This document shows positions 17,140-62,322 of a DNA stretch of 64,000 nt, piece by piece (the stretch's first letter is position 1; each line of letters starts with the position of its first letter). Source of the stretch: Polytrichum commune (taxonomy: Eukaryota; Streptophyta; Polytrichopsida; Polytrichales; Polytrichaceae); the NCBI GenBank assembly GCA_950295325.1, contig OX485805.1, positions 54,398,758-54,462,757 on the forward strand, in the 5' to 3' direction. Made by a program: the position numbers and the translations under genes. The notes beneath the pieces are model-generated. The model searched no databases. It was not told the origin of the DNA and worked only from the letters and a program-made list of their open reading frames with translations.

Positions 17140-18110
17140 CACAACAGTTGTCAACCAGGCCCATCATTACCAACCTAGTCTACCCTGTTCTACAAATTAA
17201 GCCCTGGTCCTCAACCTCTGGAGTCCTCCCAAACCGGCAGAGAGCTCTTGCCCTTGGTGGAAACCGAGGCCTACCCCCTCTACAGTCTGCCGGAGGCCTC
17301 AGGCCCTTCTGCCACGTCCTTCGTGCTTGCCCTGTGTCCGAGGTCGCTCTGCAGGCCCCTGGCTTGCCCTCAGTTCGCCTCAGCTCCTCCTCGGGCATTG
17401 TGGCGTCACACCCACTCAACCCTCCTTATTGGACATGCATTAGCCAATCACTCAGCTCCCAGCTGAAGCTTGAGGCTGAGATTTTTAGTCTGGTCCTCAG
17501 AATTTCGAAGGCAGCTCTCAGCAATGGAGTTTGGCATTCTCTAAGTCCAGCCCAATCCTCCTCATAGATTCATGATTAATAGATCCGAGGTTTCCGCAAC
17601 TGGTTCAAGCTATATGACCAACATCCCATCGCCACCATTCGGCATTCTGCCCTTCATGTTTCCAATTCCTACATCGCCAGGAATGCCTCACCAACTCCTG
17701 CCTCGTGGTCGACAATGTTGGGCCTTTCATGAACCGCAACATTCAGCACTAGCTGGTCATTTTCGGCAGTTGCCCACCCCCCTTCGGCGAGCCCCTCCAG
17801 ACCAATCCTCTTCTGTTCTCTTCTCACTTTGTGTTGTCCTTCCTACACTCTCAGCAATTTTCTGCCGGCACCCTCCTCCTTCCAAGTCCACTCAGTCTTC
17901 GTTTCCGTCCTCTCCCCCAAGGGCCACCTCCCATCTGCATCTTCCGCCGCATCCAACCTTCATCCCCATAGAGAGTGTGAGAGAGAGAGAGGCTCATGAC
18001 GAACATGGGGCCTGCTTCCGGAGGTCCGGAATTCAGGCAATTACCCTATCCAAGTGCGGAGCCCCCCCCCCTTTGAATGAACACCCTTTAACCCCGGAAT
18101 AACCAATACT
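17140..18110 (+). other. GC-rich island with open frames, function unknown
   Basis: This stretch is clearly richer in G+C than its surroundings. It holds two plus-strand open frames, 17148-17567 (139 codons) and 17572-18102 (176 codons), separated by one stop. The second is rich in Pro and Ser with no recognisable domain, and antisense frames are also open, as expected from composition alone. It could be an unrecognised exon, a transposon end or a degraded foreign insertion. I do not call a gene. Confidence 0.3.
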
Positions 18111-18539
18111 CGCACTAGCCCACTAATCCTAACCAGAATAAACAATAACTCGGCCTACGCCTTAACCCCCCGCTAAATGAAACTTTAAATCGTAACTTCT
18201 TGCAACTCCAAGCCTTCCGTACCCACAATGTAATCCATGATTCAACCTCAAGCTAGAAATCCAATGTAATGCCTAAACTAATCTTAAACTCAATTGCAAT
18301 TCTAAGCGCTAAACTCCACTCTTTTTATATTTTTGCATATTCAAACAAACACCACAGTCTAATCTTTAATAGTTTTAAAGGGTTAAAAACACATGTGTGC
18401 TCACAACAAGTTGGTTTCTAACGATTTATTTTATTTACAATACTTTCTTGATTATATTAAATATGAATTTCCCTTACAAATTATATATATTAATTTTATG
18501 GATTGCAATACCCATTTAATCTAATAATTAAAATAATAT

Positions 18540-18995
18540 AATCATTTTTTCATTTAAACTAAACTCTCAATTCTTCATTCAAACTAGTTTTCTCAATATT
18601 TTATTCAAGAATTATCAATATTTCATTAAAAAAAACTCTCACTTCTTCATTCAACCTAAGCCCTAAACCCTAAACCTAAAACTCTCAATTTTTCATTCAA
18701 ACTAAATTTTCAATTCTTTATTCAAACTAAAATCTCATTTTTTCATTGAAATTAAAATTAAAATTCTTCATCCAATATTATTTTTTATTTTTTCATTTAA
18801 AGTACACTCTCAAATTTTTATTTAAACTAAATTTTTTATTCAATCTAAACTCTCAATCATTTCCTCAAATTAAATTATATAGTCTTCAGTCAAATCAAAC
18901 CCTCAATGTTTCATTCAAAATAAACTCTCAATCCTTCATCCAAACTAAATTCTTCACTCCACTCAAATTTAATTTTCAAATTTTCACTACAACTA
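18540..18995 (+). repeat. degenerate minisatellite CTCAATTCTTCATTCAAACTAAA, with telomere-like units
   Basis: A unit of about 22-25 bp (CTCAATTCTTCATTCAAACTAA) repeats with heavy divergence for about 450 bp. CCCTAAACCCTAAACC, the plant telomere repeat, occurs within it near 18661-18676. The 84-codon open frame at 18746-19000 only reads this repeat. Confidence 0.75.
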
Positions 18996-19084
18996 ACTAG
19001 AACATGGTTGATCCACATACATATTTTGAATAGCAATAACACACGTAAATACCTACATTTTAAATACTAACCAACCAACATCAC

Positions 19085-21890
19085 GACAATGGCACATTTG
19101 ATGCATGAGATGTTGAAGCGCAAGAAGAAGGAGCCCAAGGCAAAGACATGGAGATGGTGTTGCAACAAAGCAAAGCAGACAATCCACCTTCGCGGCAAGG
19201 CGTAAGGACATGCTTCTATTGTTGCAAACTGGGCCACATTACGTGATTTTGCTACAAAGCCAACAACAATAAGAGGAAATATGCCACAAATGCGAAGGAT
19301 GAGGAAAAAATCACAATCGTAACGTAATAAATAACACATTAAAGGAGCCACACAACACATGACTTCGCATAGAACAACATTTGACACCTACGAAATAATT
19401 TCTTCATACAATGTGTTCTTGGATAATGATAGTGTGGCTGAAATCATTTGAATGAAGTCCATTGTCGTTGGAGTTGAAACGAGAGGCAAAACAATTAGAA
19501 TTCGCATCACGGACGTGTTTTACGTGCCCAAGTTGCAAGCCAACTTGCTCTCGGTGAGCAAGTTTTTGTCAAACGGATTGAAGTTGTAATTTCACGTAAA
19601 CGAATGTATTATGGGAGGTGCAAATGGCAATGTGGTTACAATAGCTCGACGTGAAGGGAATTTGTACCAAATGACCTTCACATAGATATGTGGAGCAAAT
19701 GCGGCCAGCTTTATGTGTTCACGTGAGGGAGTCGGTTCGATGGAGCTTTGGCACTGCCGACTTCGACATTTGGATGTAAGGAATGTTCATGCAATACAAA
19801 GTATGGTAAGGGACATAAACCTAGGCAAAACCTCTTGTCCCACCTCTAGATTGGTTTGCAAAGCATGCACGGAGGGGAGGGAGCATGCACGGAGGGGAGG
19901 GAGCATGCAGCAAAGTTGGGCAACGATGCGGAGAAACAAGCAACAAAAACCCTTAGAGATTGTGCATTTGGGTGTTTATGGCCCCATGAGGAACACGTCC
20001 GTGGATTGGGCAAAGTATTCTGTTACTTTTGTTAATGATTTTTTGAAGAGGGTGTGGGTTTACATGAAGAAATCTAAAAGAGAGTAGTTTGAGAGGTTTA
20101 AGGAGTTTCGATCATTTATAAAAACGCAATTGGAGCATGAAATTAAGGCATTTTGGTGGACGAGCGGAGACATCTCAAAAGATTCTGAAGCATTTTTTAT
20201 GGAACATGACATTGAGAACATGCCTCAAGACATTGGACCAGTAGAGTGTATAGGTCAAACCGTTGTCGCAATAACAAAGCGTATGCTTGAGCTCAAAAGC
20301 TTGAAAATTTGTTTTGGACGGAAACGGTGGCAAATGCGGTTTATACACTATACACTCAATGAGGGTCTTGCGCTTTGTTACACCCAAAGAAACGTGGAGC
20401 GGGAGGAAGCCTTGCATTGCACACATACATGTATTTAGAATTGTTGCTTATGCAATGGTTTCGAACGAGAAGAAGGGCAAACTCGATGTGAAAAAATAAA
20501 AATAAAAAATCAAATGCATGTTTCTCGGATAATGCGAAGGTATGAAGATGTACATGCTGATGTGTTTGGAAACAAAAAAAAATTATAAAAATTAGAGATG
20601 TTGTGTTTGAAGATGCGTCCAAGTGGGAGAAATGAAGGCTATACGGTGGTGGTGGTGGATGAATCTTCCAAATCGCCGTTGTTTGATGGCGGTGGACAAT
20701 TCATGAATGACAATGGTACTACTTACTTGTAAGCAACAACACATACATTCACTTCATGACAAAAGACACAACAAAGCAGTATGGGAAATTATGAAACTAT
20801 TAATCTCATCCGAAAAATCTCGATGCTATACTCTCATGAATGCTGGCACCTTCAATAACACACCCCAAGAAAACACCGTTCCCAATTGGCTACTCCCTTG
20901 CACATGCGGTATACAAAGATGCCATTGTAACTCCAAATTTAGACCTGATATCCTTTGTGTTAGAGGATTACCATACCAAAATGCCCCCCCCCCCACAGAC
21001 ATAGACCCCAACCTCACCATACAATTCATCGAATTCACAACTGTAATGACAGATTCTCACCAGAAACAATCGAAGCAAAAAATAGCAAATACAGACCATT
21101 AATAGACAATATTGTTGCCAGAGGATGGAAAGTTGACCCCCTTATTATAATCACTGCAGGCGCCAGAGCCACTACATACATCCCATCAATGAAGTCACTC
21201 GAAAATAAATTTAAAATACCTATGCTTACCATTAAAAACACCTTTAAAAACATCAATACTATCTCTATAAAATATGCCATGTCTATCCTCCTCCACAAAA
21301 GAAGAATAGAAAATCACCAACCGCTTCCCCAATCATTAGACCCCCCATAGATAAAGCTATAAAGCCCTAACAACTAAGCCACTCCACTCCACTCACTAAC
21401 AATGCACTAGTGAATGGATGACCACACTCATATTAAAAAATACCTAAAAACTAACCATTATGGTCCTTGTTACTGGTGATTGGTGACTATAGTGTCTACT
21501 CTCGAAAGGGAGGAGTAGATCTGTACTTCCATACCTTTGTCATGTGGGCATCGGATTGGGGGTGGATCGAACAGACACTTAATTCACGTCGGTCTCCTCC
21601 GGAGACCGAAGTTTTTTTTCTTTTTTTTCTTCTTTTTTCTTCTTGAATGACAATGAGCAAGTAGGAGGTAATGAAGTTGCAATTGAAGAGCCACGAGAAG
21701 GGTCCCCAAACATCGATGTTATTGTTGAAGAATTTGGCCATGAGCGGCAATATCCCACGAGGGAGCGGTGACCACTTGGAGAATGGTGGAAAAACCACAT
21801 TATGCCTCAATATGGTGAGGAATGGGCCAATGTGACAATATTTGAAGGTACTTTGAGTTGGACTGAATCATTTAGGCATAATATGGAGAA
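19085..21890 (+). pseudogene. Ty1/Copia retrotransposon relic (gag zinc knuckle to integrase linker), interrupted by a LINE
   Basis: Read across several frames and stops. Gag tail, then a CCHC knuckle CFYCCKLGHIT*FC (19210-19255) with a stop inside the knuckle. Protease remnant GATQHMTSHRTTFDTYEII (about 19340-19395) with the catalytic DSG lost, then DVFYVPKLQANLLSVSKF. GAG-pre-integrase MELWHCRLRHLDVRNVHAI with a C-x2-C (19740-19900). Integrase remnant LEIVHLGVYGPM (catalytic Asp replaced) and VTFVNDFLKRVWVYMKKS. Then, in a shifted frame, TPKETWSGRKPCIAHIHVF (about 20380-20440) and RDVVFEDASKW. The linker resumes after the LINE insertion at 21656 as EQVGGNEVAIEEPREG...WWKNHIMPQYGEEWANV. No reverse transcriptase, RNase H or LTR was recognised. 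A 20-bp unit (GCATGCACGGAGGGGAGGGA) is tandemly duplicated near 19864-19903. Confidence 0.85.
20716..21643 (+). mobile_element. 5'-truncated LINE 3' end with nuclease-like domain, inserted in the Copia relic
   Basis: A 928-bp insertion is flanked by the 12-bp direct repeat TGAATGACAATG at 20704-20715 and 21644-21655. Removing the insert restores the Copia linker frame (GGGQFMNDNEQVGGNE). It encodes the C-terminus of a LINE polyprotein: CYTLMNAGTFNN, VPNWLLPCTCGIQRCHC, RPDILCVRGLPY, TIQFIEFT, a 1-nt frameshift near 21042, KYRPLIDNIVARGWKVDP, LIIITAGARATTYIPS, then a stop at about 21348. RPD...IEF resembles a PD-(D/E)XK nuclease core. The 3' end is a T/C-rich tail (about 21609-21643) and not poly(A). 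No reverse transcriptase is present; this is a 5'-truncated copy made by target-primed reverse transcription. Confidence 0.85.
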
Positions 21891-25628: not shown

Positions 25629-26250
25629 TTACGATGCATAGGGGAATATTTGGGTGTGCTTGATGGTGAGCCTAGTGTGTTCCATTTGTACATGGGATTG
25701 TAGATATCTAATGATACCTATCATGTTTGTGGTTGAAGGGGGTTTGGCTAGCCGGTATGGGATAGTGTGTGCGACATGTATGTGAGGCACTAGGGTTATG
25801 GTACTTTTAAGGGCACCTTTGTTTGCTAGTGTATATGCCAATTCATCGCCTTGAATGCATATGTGTGCTTGGACTCTGTGTATGGTGATTTTGTGTTGGG
25901 ACCAAATGATAAAGTGTACTATTGATGCTATCTGGAGTTTGGCAAGGTGGTTGTGTTGGGTGGATTGGCGTCTATTGTGGTTGTTTATGAGGTCTATATT
26001 GTTGAGGCTATCAATAAATATGTGTATGTTGTGTGGGGTGTTTTGGGTGATGGCTAATGCTAGTCATATAGCATACATATACGTGTGGAGTATGTTTTAA
26101 AATCTCAAGAGTTGTTGTTGTCTTTTAGCTAGATGCATGGTGTTGATTAGGCTATATACTCTTGAGCCTATGATGTTGCCATTGCATTTGCCGTATGGTG
26201 GCATGAATGATCCGTCTATGTATATGCTATGAAGGGGTTGTATTTCAAAC
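25629..26250 (-). pseudogene. LINE RNase H domain relic
   Basis: Minus-strand translation, with at least one frameshift and stops, gives IYIDGSFMPPYGKCNG (first catalytic Asp kept), GSRVYSLINTMHLAKR, a damaged LRAE region, NIHIFIDSLNNIDLINNH (third acidic position kept), KLQIASIVHFIIWSQHKIT and IHRVQAHICIQGDELAYTLA. The last is the usual GNExADxLA box with Asp replaced by Tyr. The block order is that of RNase H type I domains in plant LINEs. About 70 codons of open sequence follow to 25629 without a nuclease domain. It may be the domain upstream of the nuclease-bearing fragments at 20.7 and 46.4 kb, but no overlap proves this. Confidence 0.8.
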
Positions 26251-26479
26251 GGTTTTGTTTATGGTCTTTTTTGTGGGATGGGCGGGGGTGCCCGTGTGGA
26301 TAGGTGTGTTGAAGGGGTATTTTATGAGGGGGAAGTTTGTCCACTTTTCCAAGGTTTTTACTTTATAGGGCTTTATCATTATGGTTGTAGTGCAGAGGCC
26401 ATTGTGGGGCTTGTGGGTATAGGTGTGTGTTTGGGGGATTGTAGTGATGGTGTGTATGTATGGGTAGTTGTCTAGTGTG

Positions 26480-27260
26480 AGTTCTCATGGCATCCAATCT
26501 TTGTGATTTAGAACCATAACTATGATATTTTGTGGATTTTTTTCAATAGCCATTCGAGCCCAATGTATTATTGAGTTAAATCTTGGTAATTTGCGGGATT
26601 TGTGTATCATGCTTTGTTCCATTGTGATGATAGCACTTGCCCTTGTGAGCCGAAGATTGTGTGTCGTTGGTGAGGTGGGTCGTTTCTTATGATAGGGACT
26701 ACACATGTAAGTGGTGAGGAATAATATGAGTGTATGAGTTGGAAAGTTCAATGATGAGGTTGATCACTATGGGATGTAGGCTATGGTGTTGGTTTATGGG
26801 TAGGGTATGTTTGGTTTTTTTCTTTCTTGGGAGTATTATATGTATACTACACCAATTCAATTTCAAAGTTTTGGGGAGGTTGGAGGAGCGTGGCAAGTAG
26901 TGGTTTGTTTGTGTTGTTAAAGTGTCTTTTCCAAAGCCAATGGAGCCATTATGAAGTTATGGTTCCTATGTAAGAGCATGTGCGGTAAGAAATTAATGTG
27001 TTTTGCATGTGTATTTGCATTGTTGGTTGTATGGCTTGTATGCCTTTGTCTAGGTTACATTCTTGGATGTTGAGGGTATTCTGGGGTAACCTAATGGGTG
27101 GTCGGAAAAATCATGAGTCTGCATTTGTGGGTCATTGAAGGTGTTTACGTATTCTTGTAATTTAATGTTGTTATGTTTGTGGTAGAGGAATGTGTTCACT
27201 AATGTTCCGATCACAAGTACAATAGAAAAGGCATCTTCTCTAGACACACTGGGAAACATA
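26480..27260 (-). pseudogene. probable continuation of the LINE relic upstream of RNase H
   Basis: Three fairly long minus-strand open segments (26485-26751, 26699-26896, 27050-27259) lie immediately 5' of the RNase H relic in the same orientation. They would be the reverse-transcriptase thumb/linker of the same LINE. I recognise no specific motif, so this rests only on position and orientation. Confidence 0.3.
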
Positions 27261-43839: not shown

Positions 43840-45349
43840 AAAACTCTCAGGCATTTAGAGTGTATATTGCACAATACTATTGTAATTTCATAGCAGCTTG
43901 GGAGGGTCTTTGCCTAATAATTAATTAGAACGACCAAAACAATTAGGCAACCTAGAAAATAATATATCAAAATTGGGCATTTTCAAAATACAATTAAAAT
44001 AAGTTAGACATTCATCCAAGCTTCTCTTATTGTTATTGGATGGCTATTGCTATTTTCTTTTCTTCTAAGGTGCCCAATTTACCCTAAACCCTTACCTTCA
44101 CCTCCGAAGCTCCCATTAATTACCCTAAACCCTTATTAGACATGCTTTGTTATGTGCGAGAGATATGTTGTATTTGTGAAAGATTGTGGGTTAGAAGTCT
44201 TAGAATGGGAGACACAAGACTCACAAAAGACTTTGCAATGTATGTCTAGACTTAATGATACCTAAAAGCTAATATATTGAATCACAAACACATGCGAGTT
44301 GAGCTTATGTGATTTGGGCATTAATACGATCTTTTTTTATTAAAAAAAGGCAAACCTTGTCAATAAATTCCAAGAAATTTAGACATCCTTTTATAATATA
44401 TTTTCTACCCAAGCTGCTAGGAAACTTTGATATTATAATAAAATTGTTAGTCACTTAGGCATAGCCAAGTACAGTCGGTAAAGTAATGATGATGTGCAAT
44501 CTACAAGCAACTGTTTGCAACTTAAATGGGGCTTTGTGAGGGACATAACATTATTAAGTAGTGTGTTTTCATTCATGTGGGCTCCAAGAATAAAACCATG
44601 GATGCCACAACTAGTGCAAATTCATACTAAATTTGCACTAGTAGCAGCATCCATGGTTTTATGCCCGGAGCCCATATGAACAAATGCACATTGCTTAATA
44701 ATGTGATGAACTAAAATTAGAGTAATTGTGCATAAACAATGCTAAAGAATTTCATCACTTTTCTTTATGATAGTCTCGCAAAGGCATATGAGACCAATTA
44801 AAATGTACATAGTACTCATGACTTTAGCCTTGTTGCCGACTAATAAGCTTAGTTTGAGATGGATTATTAAGTTGTCTAGCCTAGTTTACACGGGTCCCAA
44901 GTCCTAAGTCCCAAGTCACTAGAGGTCAATCTATGCAATCTCCACCGTTGAGAGCATGGAAGTTGAGACTTAGAGTAGACATTCCCTATACCCCCACAAT
45001 TGCATCGGGAACATGTATCACCCATTTTACCACTACAAACTCCCTACACATGCACTTGGTTGTAGCTTTGGTTCTGCATTTTAGATGATTTTGTCGCAAA
45101 TGTTGTCCATCATATATTATTTCTAAACAACATGTTTGTCCAAATATACTTAAATTTGAGTTTTGCGTTCCCTCAACATGGTCCACTTTTACTCTACACT
45201 AAACTTGAAGGCCCATCATTTATAAAAATTAATTTCTATTTCCCACAATACAACCTTTGGATGATTTCCAAGGGCCCTTAGGTTTTCATGATATCAGCAA
45301 TTGGTTTGTATGTTTAGCGGCCCTAAGCAATCAGCCACGGGGTCACTGC
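43840..45349. other. no gene recognised outside the 44.5 kb hairpin
   Basis: AT-rich noncoding DNA with short frames only. Confidence 0.5.
44548..44704. repeat. 157-bp imperfect hairpin
   Basis: The left arm (ACATTATTAAG...GGGCTCC...AAAACCATGGATGC...ACTAGTGCAAATT) pairs with the right arm (AATTTGCACTAGT...GCATCCATGGTTTT...GGAGCCCATATGAA...CTTAATAATGT) around a short loop near 44626. The arms are about 75 nt with small bulges. It is either a foldback element or a miRNA-precursor-like hairpin. Confidence 0.8.
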
Positions 45350-49638: not shown

Positions 49639-50326
49639 TTCATAGTCGATGGCGGTGTTGTGAGAAGCAAGTGTTTCATAACTTGTTTACATTTGGTCTT
49701 GGCTCGAGGGTTGAGGTCCGAGACTCCATTCTATACAAGGTGTCAAGATCGACATGACATGTGAAAATAGAAAAGTGACAGGAGCTTGTCAGGCCAGCAG
49801 TGGCTCAAGTGTGTGCTCACACAGCGATAAATTTGACCACTTGAAATGGTTTGGGATGGTGATCTAGTATTGGCATTCTATACGAAGTTCTCATTCCTTG
49901 GAATGGTGTAGGAGTTCTTTCTCTACAAGTTTGCACCCACTGCTTCTAGCCTTCTTGAGTTGATTACAATACTATCCTTTTCCAACCGATAGTCCAGCAG
50001 CTCATGTGGCTCTTTATTACATTGGAGGATCATACATAACCTGGACCAAAGTCTGGCAGTGGAAACTGCTCAAAGTTACATGTTAAGAAATTCTCAGATG
50101 AATATTCAATCACAATATAGATTGCATTGATAACATTTCCGTGGCCACATCCTGGTATGACTATGTATTATGAGCAATATGCCATCTTCTAGATTAAATC
50201 CTCCAGCCAGATTATTTTGCCTGCTGTTCTGGTACTTCATTTCAAATTCACAGCATAATAGTGGCCAGTAAGCGGCCGGGGCATTCAATAATCTGTGGTA
50301 GTTCAAATTTCAAGGGACGATTACAC

Positions 50327-52556
50327 ATGGAGTTGCATCCCGTAGTTGAACAGGTGACTAACCGGATCGTCAAGCTCAGCCAGCTATCGCGCTTGGCCTA
50401 CCTTGCTCACCTCGATGCAGCACACTCGCAGGGTGTGCAGCGGGGTGCACTCTTATGCACCAATCTCGCACATGCCTTTGCGGCATCCCCCCAGAAGTAA
50501 GTAAATCTAGACATGTTCATAAGGTTGAAAATAGTGAAATTTTATTTGTGCACTTCTATAGGTGGACCCTATGATAGAAATGACAGCAACGAATCTTACA
50601 GGTGAATTGCATTTCGTGTTGTAGCACGTGATAGTGGCATGCCCACTCTGTTATTTGTGGAAAATACACATCTAAAGGGAACATTCGACAATGTTGCTTC
50701 TCAAAATATGTATAATTAGAGTCTTCATGACATTCTTCTATTTTCTTCCTCCGAAAGCTGTGCTTTGCAATATATATGTTTCAACTGTGCAAAAAACTAT
50801 CAGATGCATCATTAATATATTGAACAAGTCTTTTGTCCATATTTACTTGAATCCTAGTGTCAAGCTCAAATTGCGCAAGCAGGAGAGGGCGTTGGTGGCA
50901 ATTATTTCGTCCTACAATGATATACTGTCGGCACACCAACCTTTTGAAAACTTCCCGAATGTGATCAAGCAGGCAATTCATGACGTTGGTGCGGTGGCCC
51001 AGTTTGCGGGCGGCGTGCCCGCCATGTGCGATGGCGTCACCCAGGGACAGCCAGGCATGGAGCTGTCTCTTTTCTCACGCGACACCATTGCGATGAGCAC
51101 GGCGATCGCACTCTCGCACAATGTGTTCGACGCGGGTCTGTACCTGGGCGTTTGCGACAAGATCGTTCCTGGACTCTTGATCGGTGCACTGCACTTTGGC
51201 CACCTCCCAGCCGTGTTTGTGCCCGCGGGTCCGATGCCGAGTGGTTTGTCAAACAAGAAAAAGGCACATGTGCGGCAACTTTATGCCCAGGGCAAGGCGA
51301 CGTGGGAGGAGCTGCTCGAATGTGAAGCACGATCATACCATGCCGCCGGCACTTGCACTTTCTATGGAACAGCCAACAGCAATCAAATGTTGATGGAGAT
51401 TATGGGCTTGCACTTGCCAGGTGCTGCCTTCATCACTCTGGGAACGCCGCTCCGTGACGCACTCACTGTGGCCGCCGCTCAACGCGCGGTTGCGATTTCT
51501 TCGCACGGTGAGGGAGGTGGGAGCTGTAACTCCATGCCAATCGGACGTTTGGTGGATGAGAAAAGCATTGTGAACGCCATTGTTGGCCTGCTTGCCACCG
51601 GCGGTTCCACAAATCACACACTGCACCTTGTGGCAATTGCTCGTGCAGCTGGGATCGTGATTGATTGGGATGACTTCAACGAGCTCTCCAGCGTGGTGCC
51701 GTTGCTGGCCCGCATCTACCCAAATGGTGACGCTGACGTGAACCACTTTCATGCCGCAGGTGGCCCGGGATTTGTAATCCGTGAGCTACTCGACGCAGGC
51801 CTAGCCCACGAGGACGTGAACACCATCCTTGGTTGCGGTCTACGTGCCCACTGCCGGAAGCCTACTCTCGACATGCACGGCAAGGTCGTTTGGCATGAGG
51901 TGCCAAGGCACAGCGGCGACGAAAATGTGGTCCGCCCTGCATCTAAACCGTTTAGCAAGGATGGTGGCCTAATTGTCGTGTCCGGTAACCTCGGCCGTGC
52001 GATCATGAAGGTTTCCGCGATCTGCAAGGAACAACAATATGTGGTCGAGGCGCCTGCACTGACATTTGACTCACAAGAGGCCTTTGTGCACGCCTACAAG
52101 GCCGGCCAGCTCAACCGCGATTTCGTTGCCATCCTCCGCCTCCAGGGCCCTCGCGCAAACGGTATGCCAGAACTGCATGCGCTCACACCTGCGTTGTCGA
52201 ACCTGCAGGACGCCGGCCATCGCGTGGCATTGGTGACCGATGGCCGTATGTCCGGCGCCTCAGGGAAGGTGCCCACCGCCATCCATGTCTCGCCGGAGAC
52301 CCTGGCAGGCGGCCCTCTAGGCCTCGTGCGGGATGGCGACATCATCCGCTTGGATGCGCACACCTGCACGCTGGAGGCTTTGGTGCCGCATGCGCTTTGG
52401 GCCCAACGTTCGCGGACAGCGACGGCGGACTTGGCAACCAGTCCCATTGGCATGGGGCGCGAGCTATTCTCCATGTTCCGCCACTGCATCAGTGACGCCG
52501 AAACGGGTGCGGTCACCTTCCCACTCCCATCCGCAACCCCGCATAAGGGCCACTAG
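50327..52556 (+). CDS. edd: 6-phosphogluconate dehydratase (Entner-Doudoroff), two exons: 50327-50496 and 50858-52556
   Basis: The enzyme dehydrates 6-phosphogluconate to 2-keto-3-deoxy-6-phosphogluconate using an iron-sulfur cluster. Exon 1 starts at ATG 50327 and encodes the conserved Edd N-terminus ([13 protein letters not shown], then [13 protein letters not shown]). Exon 2 resumes in phase through a split Asn codon and runs to TAG 52554-52556. The joined product is 622 residues; E. coli Edd is about 600. Visible motifs: [16 protein letters not shown] (Cys about 114); [11 protein letters not shown], which fits ILVD_EDD signature 1 (Cys about 156); [13 protein letters not shown] (Cys about 223); and [11 protein letters not shown], which fits signature 2 (about 517-527). 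[10 protein letters not shown] and the MCDGVTQGQ block separate it from dihydroxy-acid dehydratase (IlvD). No stop or frameshift is present. Exons are clearly GC- and CpG-rich, unlike the intron and flanks. The only other start, ATG 50691, lies inside the intron and would lose the N-terminus. No aldolase (eda) gene or operon partner is in the window. Plastid or cytosolic location is not resolved. Confidence 0.93.
50497..50857 (+). other. spliceosomal intron of edd (361 bp)
   Basis: The donor is GTAAGT at 50497-50502, directly after the codon fragment AA. The acceptor is CTTGAATCCTAG ending at 50857, behind a T-rich stretch. Removing it joins the Edd N-terminal block to the downstream Edd reading frame in the correct phase (AA|T = Asn). 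Unspliced, exon 1 hits TAA at 50498. The intron is AT-rich like the surrounding DNA, in contrast to the GC-rich exons, so it was probably gained after the coding sequence entered this genome. Confidence 0.88.
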
Positions 52557-57474: not shown

Positions 57475-60400
57475 TTACACATCTCCATCTTCCGCTTCAT
57501 ATCCATTCTCAGCGTCATTCACCGCAGCTGCAATACGTGCCAAGTTGTCTTTGGCAAAATCTATATGTTTTTGGGGGATGGTCATTGTTTCTGTTTTGGA
57601 ACCTTTGCGCGGCTTCCAAGCACAAAGTATAGTATCCGTGTTTATCCAAACCGGTGTGTACGCTGAGTCCACTGTCCACTTAAAATTCTTTTTGGTGTCC
57701 CAACCTAAATAAGTGCGTAGCACGTTTTGGTCTTTAGTGCTTGGACGACAATATTCCACCTCAATTTGACGAAAGTTGGGGCTAGTTCGAACAAAATTGG
57801 GTGAAGACAATGCTTTCACCAACCAAATTGGCTTGGGATGCTCCTCATCCCCTGCTCGTACGAGGACCAAATAACCTTCATGGCAATCAACACCTACACG
57901 AAACGATGGTGCCGGTCGATCTCGGGCAGGGCCAACGTAATGCTCGTCCATTGCGAACTCTTCACGAACGTCTCCATTGCTAAAAAACATGGTGTCGGAC
58001 TCGACAACCGTTAAACGGCTTTGTGGCCAAAATCCTTGTGTTAAAGTTGTACGGGTGTCGCCACTAAGTGTCATTAGGGCCGAGCGAATGCGATCCCAAT
58101 ACGCAATCAAAGGTTCATGAGTATCTCTAACACGTCTAGTGATGTCCTCCTCACACAACTCTTTCCAATATTCAATGAATCCGGATATGCCTTTGATGAT
58201 TTCCGGCCCATTCCTCATGGGGTCGGGTTTGCAAGGCTTTGGATCCCCATCCGGGAGCAAACATTTCCCATCATTGTCTTGACGCCATACGAGTATACCA
58301 TCATCCGGGCCCCAATTAGGAGATGTGCACAAAAGCTTAAATTGTATGGCCGGGAGACCATCATCCCTTATATAGAATCGGAATTGTTGTGCTTTGGTAT
58401 GTCCCACCAAACGGTCCCCTCCCTTCAACATGTATGGCTTGATGAAGACCTTGAAATCTGGTACTTCCTCAATCATGTGCGGAATTACCGGCATATGGTC
58501 CAAATCCATATACGATTTCATAAGAAGTGGTATGGTTGGAAAATCTTCTTCATGCAACTTCATGCTCCACCGTCCGAAAGACGCATCAATGTCATCGTGT
58601 GTGTGTCCCACCATCAAGAAAGACACAAACACCTCCTTGAAGATTCCTTTCGCCACAAGCAAGGACCAAAAACAAAATACATATCGACATTTGTTGTCCT
58701 TCGCACAATTATCAAGTTGAACGTGGAGAGTTGGAGGCAAAGGTTTCGCACAAAGAGGTTCTCCGGGTGGCTCCGGCAATGACGACATACAAACCTCCTT
58801 CCCCTCAAGCAGTGCTTCGTAAAGGGGTGTCGTTCCACAACCATCAAACAATGCACGTGATGAATGTACCGGTGGCTTCTCCAGATCGCGCAAGAGTTTT
58901 GCAAATGATCCCACCGTGTGGTTAGCATCGCCAGGGTAAAAATCCAGACCATAATGGGCATACTTTACGTCTCCATGTCCGTGGGCAATCATCCCTGGGA
59001 AAGAAACAAACGATGCATGAATGAAAACAACAACAACCCTAAACGGATGTATGAAGTTGAAACCTAACGTAAACACACCTAGTAAAATTGGATAATTTGA
59101 ACACATATTTGTGATTTCATACAAACCTGTGACAGCTACTGGCAACTTGAAGAGTCCATCCGTGGCCTTTATTTTCCATGCATAACAAGGGCATGCGGTC
59201 TTTGCATGGTCCATTTTATCATGGATGATTGTTAGAACCTCTGTAGGCCTCATTATGGATAGAGCACGGTTCTTATAGTAATCTTGACGGTGAGCCTCTT
59301 GGTTGTTGACATGTTCAATATATTTTCTTTGGTGTCTGGAGTGTGATTCGGTGCCTATGGGGTGGGCGTCCCGAAGACCTTTGTATTTTTCACACGTCGT
59401 ACACCTAGCGAACTTGTCCCCAGGTCTCTTCAAAATGTATTCAGCAAACTGTTGGTTTTTAATCACACTCAACTTGGACAAAGAAATGGGCCCACATCCC
59501 GCTATGCGACCCACTTCGTTAATGTCCGTTAAAATGTTCTTCCATTTTGTTCCCATGGGCAAAACCATTTGTACAATTTTCTCCCCTGACGACAATGTTC
59601 TCGTTTTGTGGGGCATTGCATCGGCCAATGGGACAATGATGGTGGAGAGTGTCGCAGAGGCTTGGAGTGTAGCCTCCCTGGGTTTCTTTGTACCCAAATT
59701 TCCATGAAATCGAGAGCGCCGACCCAACGATGAATACTTTTGAAACCTATAAAAGTCAGACTTTGAAACGGCGTGGATGGTATACCACGCGGTACAACAC
59801 ACTTCCACATTCTCAAGTGTGACCACCTTATGCCCATGGGTGTCAATGTGCACATTTATGTGGACCTCGAGTTTCTTTGCCGATCTCATCCGGAAATCCG
59901 CAAGCCACATCTCTTAACGTAGGGACTTAATTTTCTCCCGCGAGAAAAATTGGCAACATTTCCGATCGCAACAGTCCTTGGCGGACACAAGACGGATAGA
60001 TTCGTCTCCCAATATGCGATCCCGTCTACGTTCTTTATCTCCTCGAGGCACACGGTTAGAATCATATTTGCGCAGGCCTTTGCGAGGACGTATGTTGGCC
60101 AACAAAGCTAATTGCGTTTGCTTATGGCGCCGCTCATGGTCCAACAAGCTCACTCCGTCATAGAGAACCCGACAAAGAGGCCATCGACGCAAGGAGAATC
60201 TCCATGTCACCGGGACCTCAAGCGGAAGCAATGAATTCAAGATGCACACACCAACATCGCTAGGACCAAGGGGGTTGGCATCCACACAATCACGGGGATC
60301 GGAGTTTCTACATATGCCATCTGCCACAGGGACACCAAGGTCGTTGTGTAGGACGACATCAAGGCCAACCCATTGCTCCCTCCCGAAACCGGCACACAAA

Positions 60401-60603
60401 GGAATGTCATCGTGGTCATCCCTGGAATGTAGAGATTGTTCGTGCACTTCCAAAGATTCATGGGAGGATGCATCCACAAACACCCCCATCACGTTAGGCA
60501 TACCATTACTACCCGCCGACGGGGAAGAAAGTTCACAGTTACCATCGGAGGACGAAGCAATTGTGGGAAACTCCAATGAACTATATGCCGCGGGCAGCGC
60601 CAT
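57475..60603 (-). pseudogene. DUF7869-type DDE-like transposase gene, one intron, one premature stop
   Basis: This is a minus-strand gene starting at ATG 60603-60601, the first ATG in frame. It reads 229 codons, meets a single TAA at 59914-59916, then continues in the same frame for 768 codons after removal of an in-frame intron (58995-59126). The product would be about 997 residues. Landmarks in order: a Cys cluster CCDRKCCQFF just before the stop; HGNLGTKKPR; a CTTCEKYKGLR zinc-finger-like motif; HDKMDHAKTACPC; LPVAVTG-MIAHGHGD across the splice; QLDNCAKDNKCRYVF near 58711 (candidate catalytic Asp); and GHTHDDIDASFGRW near 58600. These match the plant and animal transposon proteins annotated DUF7869. 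The enzymatic role is inferred. The single disabling change suggests recent inactivation. A palindrome array lies directly upstream at 61.0-62.3 kb. An alternative is that the TAA is a sequencing error and the gene is intact. Confidence 0.75.
58995..59126 (-). other. intron in the DUF7869-type transposase (132 bp, multiple of three)
   Basis: On the minus strand the exon ends ...GTCACAG, followed by GTTTGT, and the intron ends TTTCTTTCCCAG before GGATGATT. Splicing gives VTGMIAHGHGD, a continuous conserved block. The intron has no stop and is 44 codons long, so unspliced RNA stays open and adds a hydrophobic stretch that does not belong to the family. Confidence 0.75.
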
Positions 60604-60984
60604 AAAACCTAAGCAAACCAATAATTAATGACAAACAAAACAAGCACAGCAATGCACACAAAAGCGAATACGAGAGCTGTGTAGGTATATGGCTCAAAAA
60701 TCACAAAGAACTCTCGCGGCATCGTTGGGGGACCTCACATATGTAGACGAACGTGCTTTCGAAAACAACGCCATGACATGGAAATACAACATGGGATCCA
60801 CACGGCAATGGACAACGGCATGCAATTGTAAAATGGATAAGCAACGTGCATTGATTATGAGCACCCAAAATGCACTTGCATCATTATAATGATGCAGTAA
60901 AGCAATTGAGGGACATGTCTTTGACGGGTGTGTGCATGCGAACGACCGACCCCAAGACAGAGCCAAAACTGAGGGATGTATGTA

Positions 60985-62322
60985 TACGAACGATCGTTCA
61001 TAAGTCCTAGCCGAAACATATGGACGTATGCATAGGAACGATAAATAATATGTTCTAGCCGTGACCTTGTTTGTAAAAACTATTGACCCGACAGAAGAGA
61101 TATCCATAGCCAAGGACTTGGAGGCATGTGTTCAAACTAACGGTTGTTTCTGGATAATTGCAAAATAATATCAATTGATATTTACGAACGCACGTTCGTG
61201 AATAACCCACCATCAGATGTTCAGTTGGACATCACAGATTCACGGGAGCCTATGTGGGTTGGAAGGTTGGAAGGAAAATATACGAATGCACGTTCGTGTA
61301 TCATTGATACATTTTAGTACCTACGACTACCTATAAGTAGGTCAATGTGGATCTATGTACAATGATCTACTTACGAACGCACGTTCGCAAACAACTCGCA
61401 TCACAAGAACTTAGGTGCGACTGTATCTCGAAAGAAATATATACGAACGCACGTTCGTATATCATTGACAATTTTCATGCCTCTGACTACATATAAGTAA
61501 ATCAACGTGGAGTATGTCTAATGCTCTACTTACGAACGTACGTTCGTAAACCAATCACATCACACGAAGTTAGGTGCCCTGTATCTTGAAGGAAATATAT
61601 ACGAACGCACGTTCGTAAACCAATCACATCACACGAAGTTAGGTGCCCTGTATCTGGAAGGAAATATATACGAACGCACGTTCGTATGTCATCGATAATT
61701 TTCATGCCTCTGACTACATATAATTAAATCAACATGGAGTATGTCTAATGCTCGGTTTACGAACGCACGTTCGTAAACCAATCACATCACACGAAGTTAG
61801 GTGCCCTGTATCTGAAAGGAAATATATACGAACGCACGTTCGTATGTCATCGACAATTTTCATGCCTCTGACTACATATAATTAAATCAACATGGAGTAT
61901 GTCTAATGCTCGGTTTACGAACGCACGTTCGTAAACCAATCACATCACACGAAGTTAGGTGTCCTGTATCTTGAAGGAAATATATACGAACGCACGTTCG
62001 TATGTCATCGACAATTTTCATGCCTCTGACTACATATAATTAAATCAACATGGAGTATGTCTAATGCTCTACTTACGAACGCACGTTCGTAAACCATTCA
62101 CATCACACGAACTTAGGTGCCCCTGTATCTCGAAGGAAATATATACGAACGCACGTTCGTATATCATTGACAACTTTCATGCCTCTGACTACATATACGT
62201 AAATCAGCGTGGAGTATGTCTAATGCTCGGTTTACGAACGCACGTTCGTAAACCACTCACATCACGTGTCTGAGCCTATTGTGCATATGCTACCAACTCA
62301 TCTTTACGAACGTGCGTTCATA
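60985..62322. repeat. array of 16 near-palindromes TACGAACGCACGTTCGTA, alternating 69/89-bp spacing
   Basis: Copies start at 60985, then 61183, 61281, 61372, 61442, 61531, 61600, 61669, 61758, 61827, 61916, 61985, 62074, 62144, 62233 and 62305. Each has 8-bp arms (TACGAACG/CGTTCGTA) around a 2-bp centre; the 61531 copy is a perfect palindrome. From 61372 the spacing mostly alternates about 69 and 89 bp, giving a repeat unit of about 158 bp with two palindromes. The intervals are also repeated (CATGCCTCTGACTACATATA; CACATCACACGAAGTTAGG). One 69-bp segment is locally duplicated (61531-61669). The array lies 5' of the minus-strand transposase and looks like a subterminal binding-site array. That role is inferred. 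Confidence 0.9.

Follow-up and report, generated by a model that had tools for sequence, protein, structure and literature searches.

A predicted intron-bearing gene for bacterial-type 6-phosphogluconate dehydratase in a Polytrichum commune contig

It is important to know whether any plant carries a genuine 6-phosphogluconate dehydratase (EDD, encoded by edd), and the locus described here raises that question directly. Evans et al. (2024; PMC10847513) conclude, in the sections of that paper drawn on here, that EDD and hence the Entner-Doudoroff pathway is absent from all eukaryotes. In the same sections apparent eukaryotic EDDs are dismissed, partly for missing introns, and plant dihydroxy-acid dehydratase (DHAD) is argued to be unable to substitute for EDD. 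The Phaeodactylum EDD claim (Fabris et al., 2012), a eukaryotic sequence annotated as EDD and known to us by citation, is cited in the excerpted text of PMC10847513 and PMC8465370, and is described in the former as being without functional confirmation. No confirmed eukaryotic Edd appears in the excerpts of PMC5124317 or PMC8465370, and in those of PMC10907420 the name phosphogluconate dehydratase occurs a single time, where a table gives it as the name of a COG. In the literature searched we found no report of Edd in a moss, and the exceptions dismissed by Evans et al. may include a moss sequence.

In this study, we followed up a gene in a 64,000-base stretch of Polytrichum commune DNA (38.9% GC; hereafter the window), for which a sequence-only reading had proposed a complete bacterial-type Edd split by an intron, acquired by ancient horizontal or endosymbiotic transfer and retained under selection. 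The explanation that we regard as very probable is that an edd gene passed from a Massilia-like bacterium into a moss ancestor, gained an intron and was kept under purifying selection.

Gene structure and protein identity

Excision of positions 50497-50857 leaves 622 codons with zero internal stops (Table 1). The donor of the predicted intron reads AA/GTAAGTA and the acceptor TTACTTGAATCCTAG/TG, and the positions 50496 and 50858 named in the sequence-only reading are the exon bases on either side. When GT donors within 50441-50540 were scanned against AG acceptors within 50801-50930, three donor-acceptor pairs kept the frame open, each with the donor at 50497 and with acceptors at 50803, 50857 and 50887. 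Only the acceptor at 50857 gave a gap-free alignment with bacterial Edd. The junction reads SPQN-V-KLKLR in the window and FPANDKLKLR in bacteria, that is N57-V-K-L-K-L against the commonest bacterial residues N-D-K-L-K-L. The candidate intron has the GT donor, the AG acceptor and the restoration of frame at the homologous place that characterize spliceosomal GT-AG introns, in agreement with what had been read from the sequence. The contrast in composition noted at the same time was also recovered, with a GC content of 0.576 in exon 1 and 0.588 in exon 2 vs. 0.341 in the intron and 0.386 and 0.368 in the 2-kb flanks. The observed/expected CpG ratio is 0.72 in exon 1, 0.94 in exon 2, 0.48 in the intron and 0.56 in the window. 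In a self-search of the window the intron did not recur as a repeated element, the next best match having an E of 0.065.

Table 1. Coordinates of the edd gene and of a neighboring open reading frame in the window.
Feature	Position	Strand	Details
edd gene, two exons	50327..52556	+	spliced product 622 aa, undamaged, without internal stop
edd exon 1	50327..50496	+	170 bases; ATG, residues 1-56 and two bases of codon 57
edd intron	50497..50857	+	361 bases, GTAAGT...TAG, phase 2, 34% GC; splicing predicted
edd exon 2	50858..52556	+	1,699 bases; third base of codon 57 through residue 622, TAG stop
GVCDKIVPG segment in edd exon 2, residues 154-162	51147..51173	+	every position is the commonest residue in 186 bacterial-type rows
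DUF7869 ORF, 811 residues, ~5 kb from edd	57475..59910	-	PF25273, 133.5 bits

The Edd equivalog model TIGR01196 (NCBIfam) is passed by 170 bits (score 878.6, cut-off 708.25), and the scores for the ilvD model TIGR00110 (322 bits against 618.15) and the dihydroxy-acid dehydratase model NF002068 (348.8 bits against 644) fall below their cut-offs; all three scores refer to the open reading frame 50691-52556, which consists of exon 2 and 56 intron read-through residues, with exon 1 absent. Exon 1 alone gave no Pfam match. For the spliced protein, the best match among solved structures is the 6-phosphogluconate dehydratase 2gp4 (756 bits, residues 3-609), followed by a dihydroxy-acid dehydratase at 181 bits; the best chloroplast DHAD scores 180 bits. 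Membership of the plant DHADs, with which the gene shares the ILVD_EDD superfamily, was rejected on these results, and the predicted product is a bacterial-type 6-phosphogluconate dehydratase, not a dihydroxy-acid dehydratase. The sequence-only reading was right that the gene is complete and undamaged, and right to place it outside the plant enzymes.

The likeness to bacterial Edd (TIGR01196; 2gp4) extends over nearly the whole length, including the cysteine and serine segments and the domain-2 motif. Cys114, Cys156, Cys223 and Ser522 are all retained, and none of the four varies across the 186 bacterial-type rows, which comprise 119 proteins from the protein search described below and 67 of 80 loci. 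We take the three cysteines to be putative Fe-S cluster ligands and S522 to be a putative catalytic residue. The EDD-specific domain-1 motif, LAHGFAAX4(D/E)KX3 in the excerpts of Evans et al. (2024; PMC10847513), is departed from at G50A and D58V, with the remaining positions kept. Alanine is found at the first of these sites in 19 of the 186 rows. At the second, which lies beside the intron, valine occurs in 1/186 and a residue other than D or E in 8/186. The domain-2 basic motif, printed in the same source as KXK(V/I)RQLYAXXK, is kept at residues 190-203, where K192 and V195 are separated by two residues, a spacing shared by the 186 aligned rows.

The two departures in domain 1, together with an insertion at 276-280 and the fact that no KDPG aldolase gene was found nearby, would fit a protein kept for another dehydration, of a different sugar acid or in branched-chain amino acid synthesis, instead of that of 6-phosphogluconate. 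We consider this unlikely in view of the margin by which the equivalog model is passed, the intact domain-2 motif and the strict substrate specificity reported for both enzymes in the excerpts of PMC10847513.

Related copies and selection

A protein search with the window Edd scored 8000 candidates, of which the best 120 were listed. Among these, the 561-residue P0002 comes from a 3,631-base JGI contig and matches 90% of the query at 96% identity. Identity is 76%–82% for the remaining 119, which are bacterial wherever an organism is named, and no plant name occurs among the best 120 of 8000. P0002 starts at residue 62, five codons past the intron-split codon, and its first residue is L, the sole non-M start among the 240 proteins compared. 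Because this start may be a contig edge, P0002 was not taken as evidence for the intron.

To a gene caller that is blind to introns, exon 1 should look like a very small open reading frame terminated at the intron, and exon 1 of the window, read unspliced, ends in AAG TAA as a 57-residue frame. A search with the 56 residues of exon 1 only yielded three proteins. P0242 (57 aa, 98% identical, four contigs with the longest at 4,846 bases, sources jgi, lgn and ena) and P0243 (57 aa, 96%, two contigs with the longest at 3,513 bases, sources lgn and ena) both terminate in K exactly at the window donor. They are one residue apart from each other and two and three residues apart from the window. The third, P0244 (75 aa, 78%, a single 623-base contig), reads through the donor site and looks bacterial. 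We infer that the same intron follows the P0242 and P0243 frames; the position of the break itself is shared with the window. Absence of the gene elsewhere had been named in the sequence-only reading as a sign of contamination or chimerism; what we found instead were related copies, namely P0002, P0242 and P0243.

The window gene and P0002 have in common an insertion of five residues (276-280), a cysteine at position 446 and one extra residue at 578, and both are without 24 C-terminal alignment columns. These insertions and the shortened end are absent from the 119 near rows. The window gene thus differs from bacterial Edd in being split by an intron, in insertions common only with P0002 and in its shorter end, and also in a lower GC3 and in having no adjacent eda that we could find. 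A search for relatives of P0002 in viral contigs returned no DNA that matched the search patterns.

To describe divergence, window edd was compared with eight Oxalobacteraceae genes over 607 gap-free codons, with 11 of the 80 loci entering the analysis overall. Values of pS between the window and these genes range from 0.65–0.77 and of pN from 0.153–0.186, as against 0.29–0.55 and 0.034–0.177 among the eight themselves. GC3 is 0.66 in window edd vs. 0.78–0.93 in the eight. Three-point estimates from five triplets give a dS of 1.33–1.53, a dN of 0.096–0.105 and a ratio of 0.067–0.075 for the moss branch, which are rough and count as an order of magnitude only because dS is near saturation, GC3 differs and the branch includes a bacterial part before the transfer. 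The Massilia arenosa branch has a dN/dS of 0.22–0.55. The window and M. arenosa are separated by 517 base differences, which cause 138 residue changes and 0 stops; the same number of differences placed randomly in 500 draws caused a mean of 298 residue changes (minimum 272) and 10.6 stops (minimum 3). Between the window and P0002, 27 of 553 sites differ, and these fall at variable positions. The mean entropy at these sites is 1.37 vs. 0.78 at random sites, a value reached in 2 of 10,000 draws. These patterns support the view that purifying selection keeps the gene intact, and the retention under selection suggested earlier finds support in the approximate moss-branch ratio.

Across the 186 bacterial-type rows, 207 sites are conserved at a level of 98% or more, and the window differs at five of them (17, 79, 251, 482 and 560). 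At 251 (P to L) and 482 (V to I), the window alone has changed and P0002 keeps the bacterial residue. At 560, both copies depart from the bacterial G, each in its own way; the change at 79 is common to both and site 17 lies outside P0002. The changes at 251, 482 and 560 may reflect early or recent relaxation in the window copy. They could also point to a recent pseudogene or silenced insert, a gene that was transferred and once selected and is now unexpressed, as could the gene-poor surroundings with their DUF7869 frame and weak retroelement matches and the fact that no partner gene was found in the window. On the other hand, the frame is full-length, the splice sites are intact, the four putative cluster and catalytic residues are retained and the differences from P0002 avoid conserved sites, and we judge a dead or silent gene to be improbable.

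Phylogeny and origin

A 98-row tree was built from the window gene, P0002, 36 further proteins from the search and 60 loci, the latter drawn from 68 readable of 80 fetched after 12 had been set aside by a motif filter. The window gene pairs with P0002 (SH-aLRT 100) inside a 45-row set (SH-aLRT 99) in which Oxalobacteraceae, with seven named members, is the only family named. Undibacterium L060, which has a long branch, attaches to this set with a support of 91. In a 36-row tree, 28 rows comprising the moss pair, Oxalobacteraceae and near proteins are supported at 100/100, and the moss pair lies within a 17-row Massilia-type set at 99/99. Forcing the 26 bacterial rows together, with the moss pair as their sister, costs 10.8 log units, yet the AU test does not reject this arrangement (p 0.129). 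Nor does it reject P0018 as the sole partner of the moss pair (p 0.302), a grouping that is absent from the 36-row tree. Nesting inside rather than beside Oxalobacteraceae is therefore not proven. Since both trees group the gene with that family, the donor is, on this phylogenetic evidence, a member of Oxalobacteraceae or a close relative. The highest identity is 82% for unnamed metagenome rows, 80% for rows with an organism name (a Massilia MAG) and 77% for genome loci.

The intron position is read through in 186 of 186 bacterial-type rows, and for this reason the intron would have been gained after the transfer, which is an indirect argument for the later gain that the sequence-only reading had assumed.

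Bacterial contamination or an assembly chimera would mean that a Massilia-type edd had been misjoined into moss DNA. Such an error would explain why identity of the protein to metagenome rows reaches 82% and why the GC content of the exons is strongly unlike that of the flanks, and earlier plant EDD hits were judged to be artefacts in the excerpts of Evans et al. (2024; PMC10847513). It is nevertheless very unlikely here, because P0242 and P0243 end at the same donor and P0002, which corresponds to exon 2, is 96% identical. An AT-rich GT-AG intron within the gene, the insertions and shortened end that P0002 shares and the 119 near rows do not, and a pS to each of the eight Oxalobacteraceae above that among them also argue against it. 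Furthermore, when stop-to-stop open reading frames of at least 150 residues from eight Oxalobacteraceae loci were used as tblastn queries (E up to 1e-3), no co-transferred bacterial neighbors were found in the window, all matches being confined to 50306-52546, the edd stretch. For eda, the KDPG aldolase gene, a single query gave no match in the window. This query was the frame adjoining edd in locus L003, which reads like KDPG aldolase and which we presume to be one. The window gene has an intron, the lack of which counted against the exceptions discussed by Evans et al., and it shares a long, separate branch with a second copy; measured by the criteria of those authors, it has no evident transit peptide and two departures from the domain-1 motif.

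Endosymbiotic transfer from a plastid or mitochondrial ancestor, which would account for an old intron and for which we found no support, was rejected as barely credible given the grouping with Oxalobacteraceae in both trees, the absence of EDD from probable plastid ancestors (excerpts of Evans et al., 2024; PMC10847513) and the lack of a plant name in the best 120 of 8000 protein matches. Of the two routes left side by side in the sequence-only reading, the horizontal one stands and the endosymbiotic one does not.

Under the preferred explanation, horizontal acquisition from bacteria, a moss ancestor would have taken up edd from a Massilia-like betaproteobacterium (Oxalobacteraceae). Once established in AT-rich DNA of the host, the gene would have acquired a single spliceosomal intron and small in-frame insertions, become shorter at its C-terminal end and drifted in base composition, and purifying selection would have kept it intact after the transfer. 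The event is of a known kind, that of bacterial genes in mosses, and foreign genes in moss or plant genomes are reported in the excerpts of PMC11228847 and PMC12454661. In the main texts of these two papers the words dehydratase, Entner, Massilia and Oxalobacter do not occur.

Possible role and surrounding DNA

We infer splicing, a nuclear location, activity, the compartment and pairing with a plant KDPG aldolase. The spliced product would be a bacterial-type Edd, predicted to be cytosolic because the start codon coincides with the bacterial Edd start and the frame upstream of the ATG consists of 43 open codons with no ATG among them. No transit peptide is evident at the N-terminus; an unseen upstream exon could add one. 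In the cytosol, Edd would convert 6-phosphogluconate from the oxidative pentose phosphate route into KDPG. Since the soybean KDPG aldolase is located in the chloroplast (excerpts of PMC10847513), KDPG would have to cross compartments, or the moss would have another aldolase, or the product would serve something else.

It is a tentative and somewhat doubtful suggestion that a land plant runs an Entner-Doudoroff shunt in which a moss Edd makes KDPG and a plant KDPG aldolase splits it. If it is true, the claim that the Entner-Doudoroff pathway is limited to prokaryotes is wrong. At the level of the gene, an intact, intron-bearing Edd under apparent purifying selection in a probable moss, accompanied by interrupted copies in contigs from three source collections, is a counter-example to the conclusion of Evans et al. 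(2024), as given in the excerpts of PMC10847513. The pathway question becomes testable by measuring a single metabolite, KDPG, in a single plant. For proposals to introduce the Entner-Doudoroff pathway into plant cells, the locus would also provide natural material.

Among the 24 window open reading frames, out of 150 with at least 70 residues, that were scanned against Pfam, the DUF7869 frame alone passed a curated cut-off. A search found 184 relatives of it, and eight of the best 120 listed carry an organism name, all of them mosses (three Ceratodon purpureus and five Physcomitrium patens, 40%–45% identity), so that the host is most probably a moss different from either of these species. DUF7869 is presumably common in moss mobile elements. 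By way of this one neighboring gene, edd is probably flanked by eukaryotic, probably moss DNA, which fits the plant setting assumed in the sequence-only reading. Just upstream of the DUF7869 frame is a 235-aa frame without a Pfam match (57475-60621 for both, - strand), and relatives of the DUF7869 frame among the matches listed are up to 97% identical over about one third of it (P0183, ena). This stretch may be part of a moss mobile element that was active recently. A gag_pre-integrase match (1.5e-05) and an RNase H match (0.001), at 19686-20084 and 25632-26063 and both below curated cut-offs, probably mark decayed retroelements; the weak gag_pre-integrs match is about 30 kb from edd. No Rfam families at gathering score and no tRNAs were found in the window.

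Several other features of the window were observed. A 165-base hairpin at 44544-44708, with 79-base arms that are 82% complementary and seven bases between them, has a folding energy of -95.1 kcal/mol (z -15.3 vs. 200 shuffles) and no Rfam match at gathering score. It may represent the precursor of a small RNA or a mobile element of the hairpin type. Overlapping tandem arrays at 61270-62265 contain the palindrome TACGAACGCACGTTCGTA, and the largest array, at 61600-62265, consists of 4.2 copies of a 158-base unit with 95% matches. Strong strand asymmetry is seen in a GC skew of -0.525 at 18001-19000 and +0.463 at 26001-27000, the former region overlapping a degenerate 25-base tandem array at 18542-18953.
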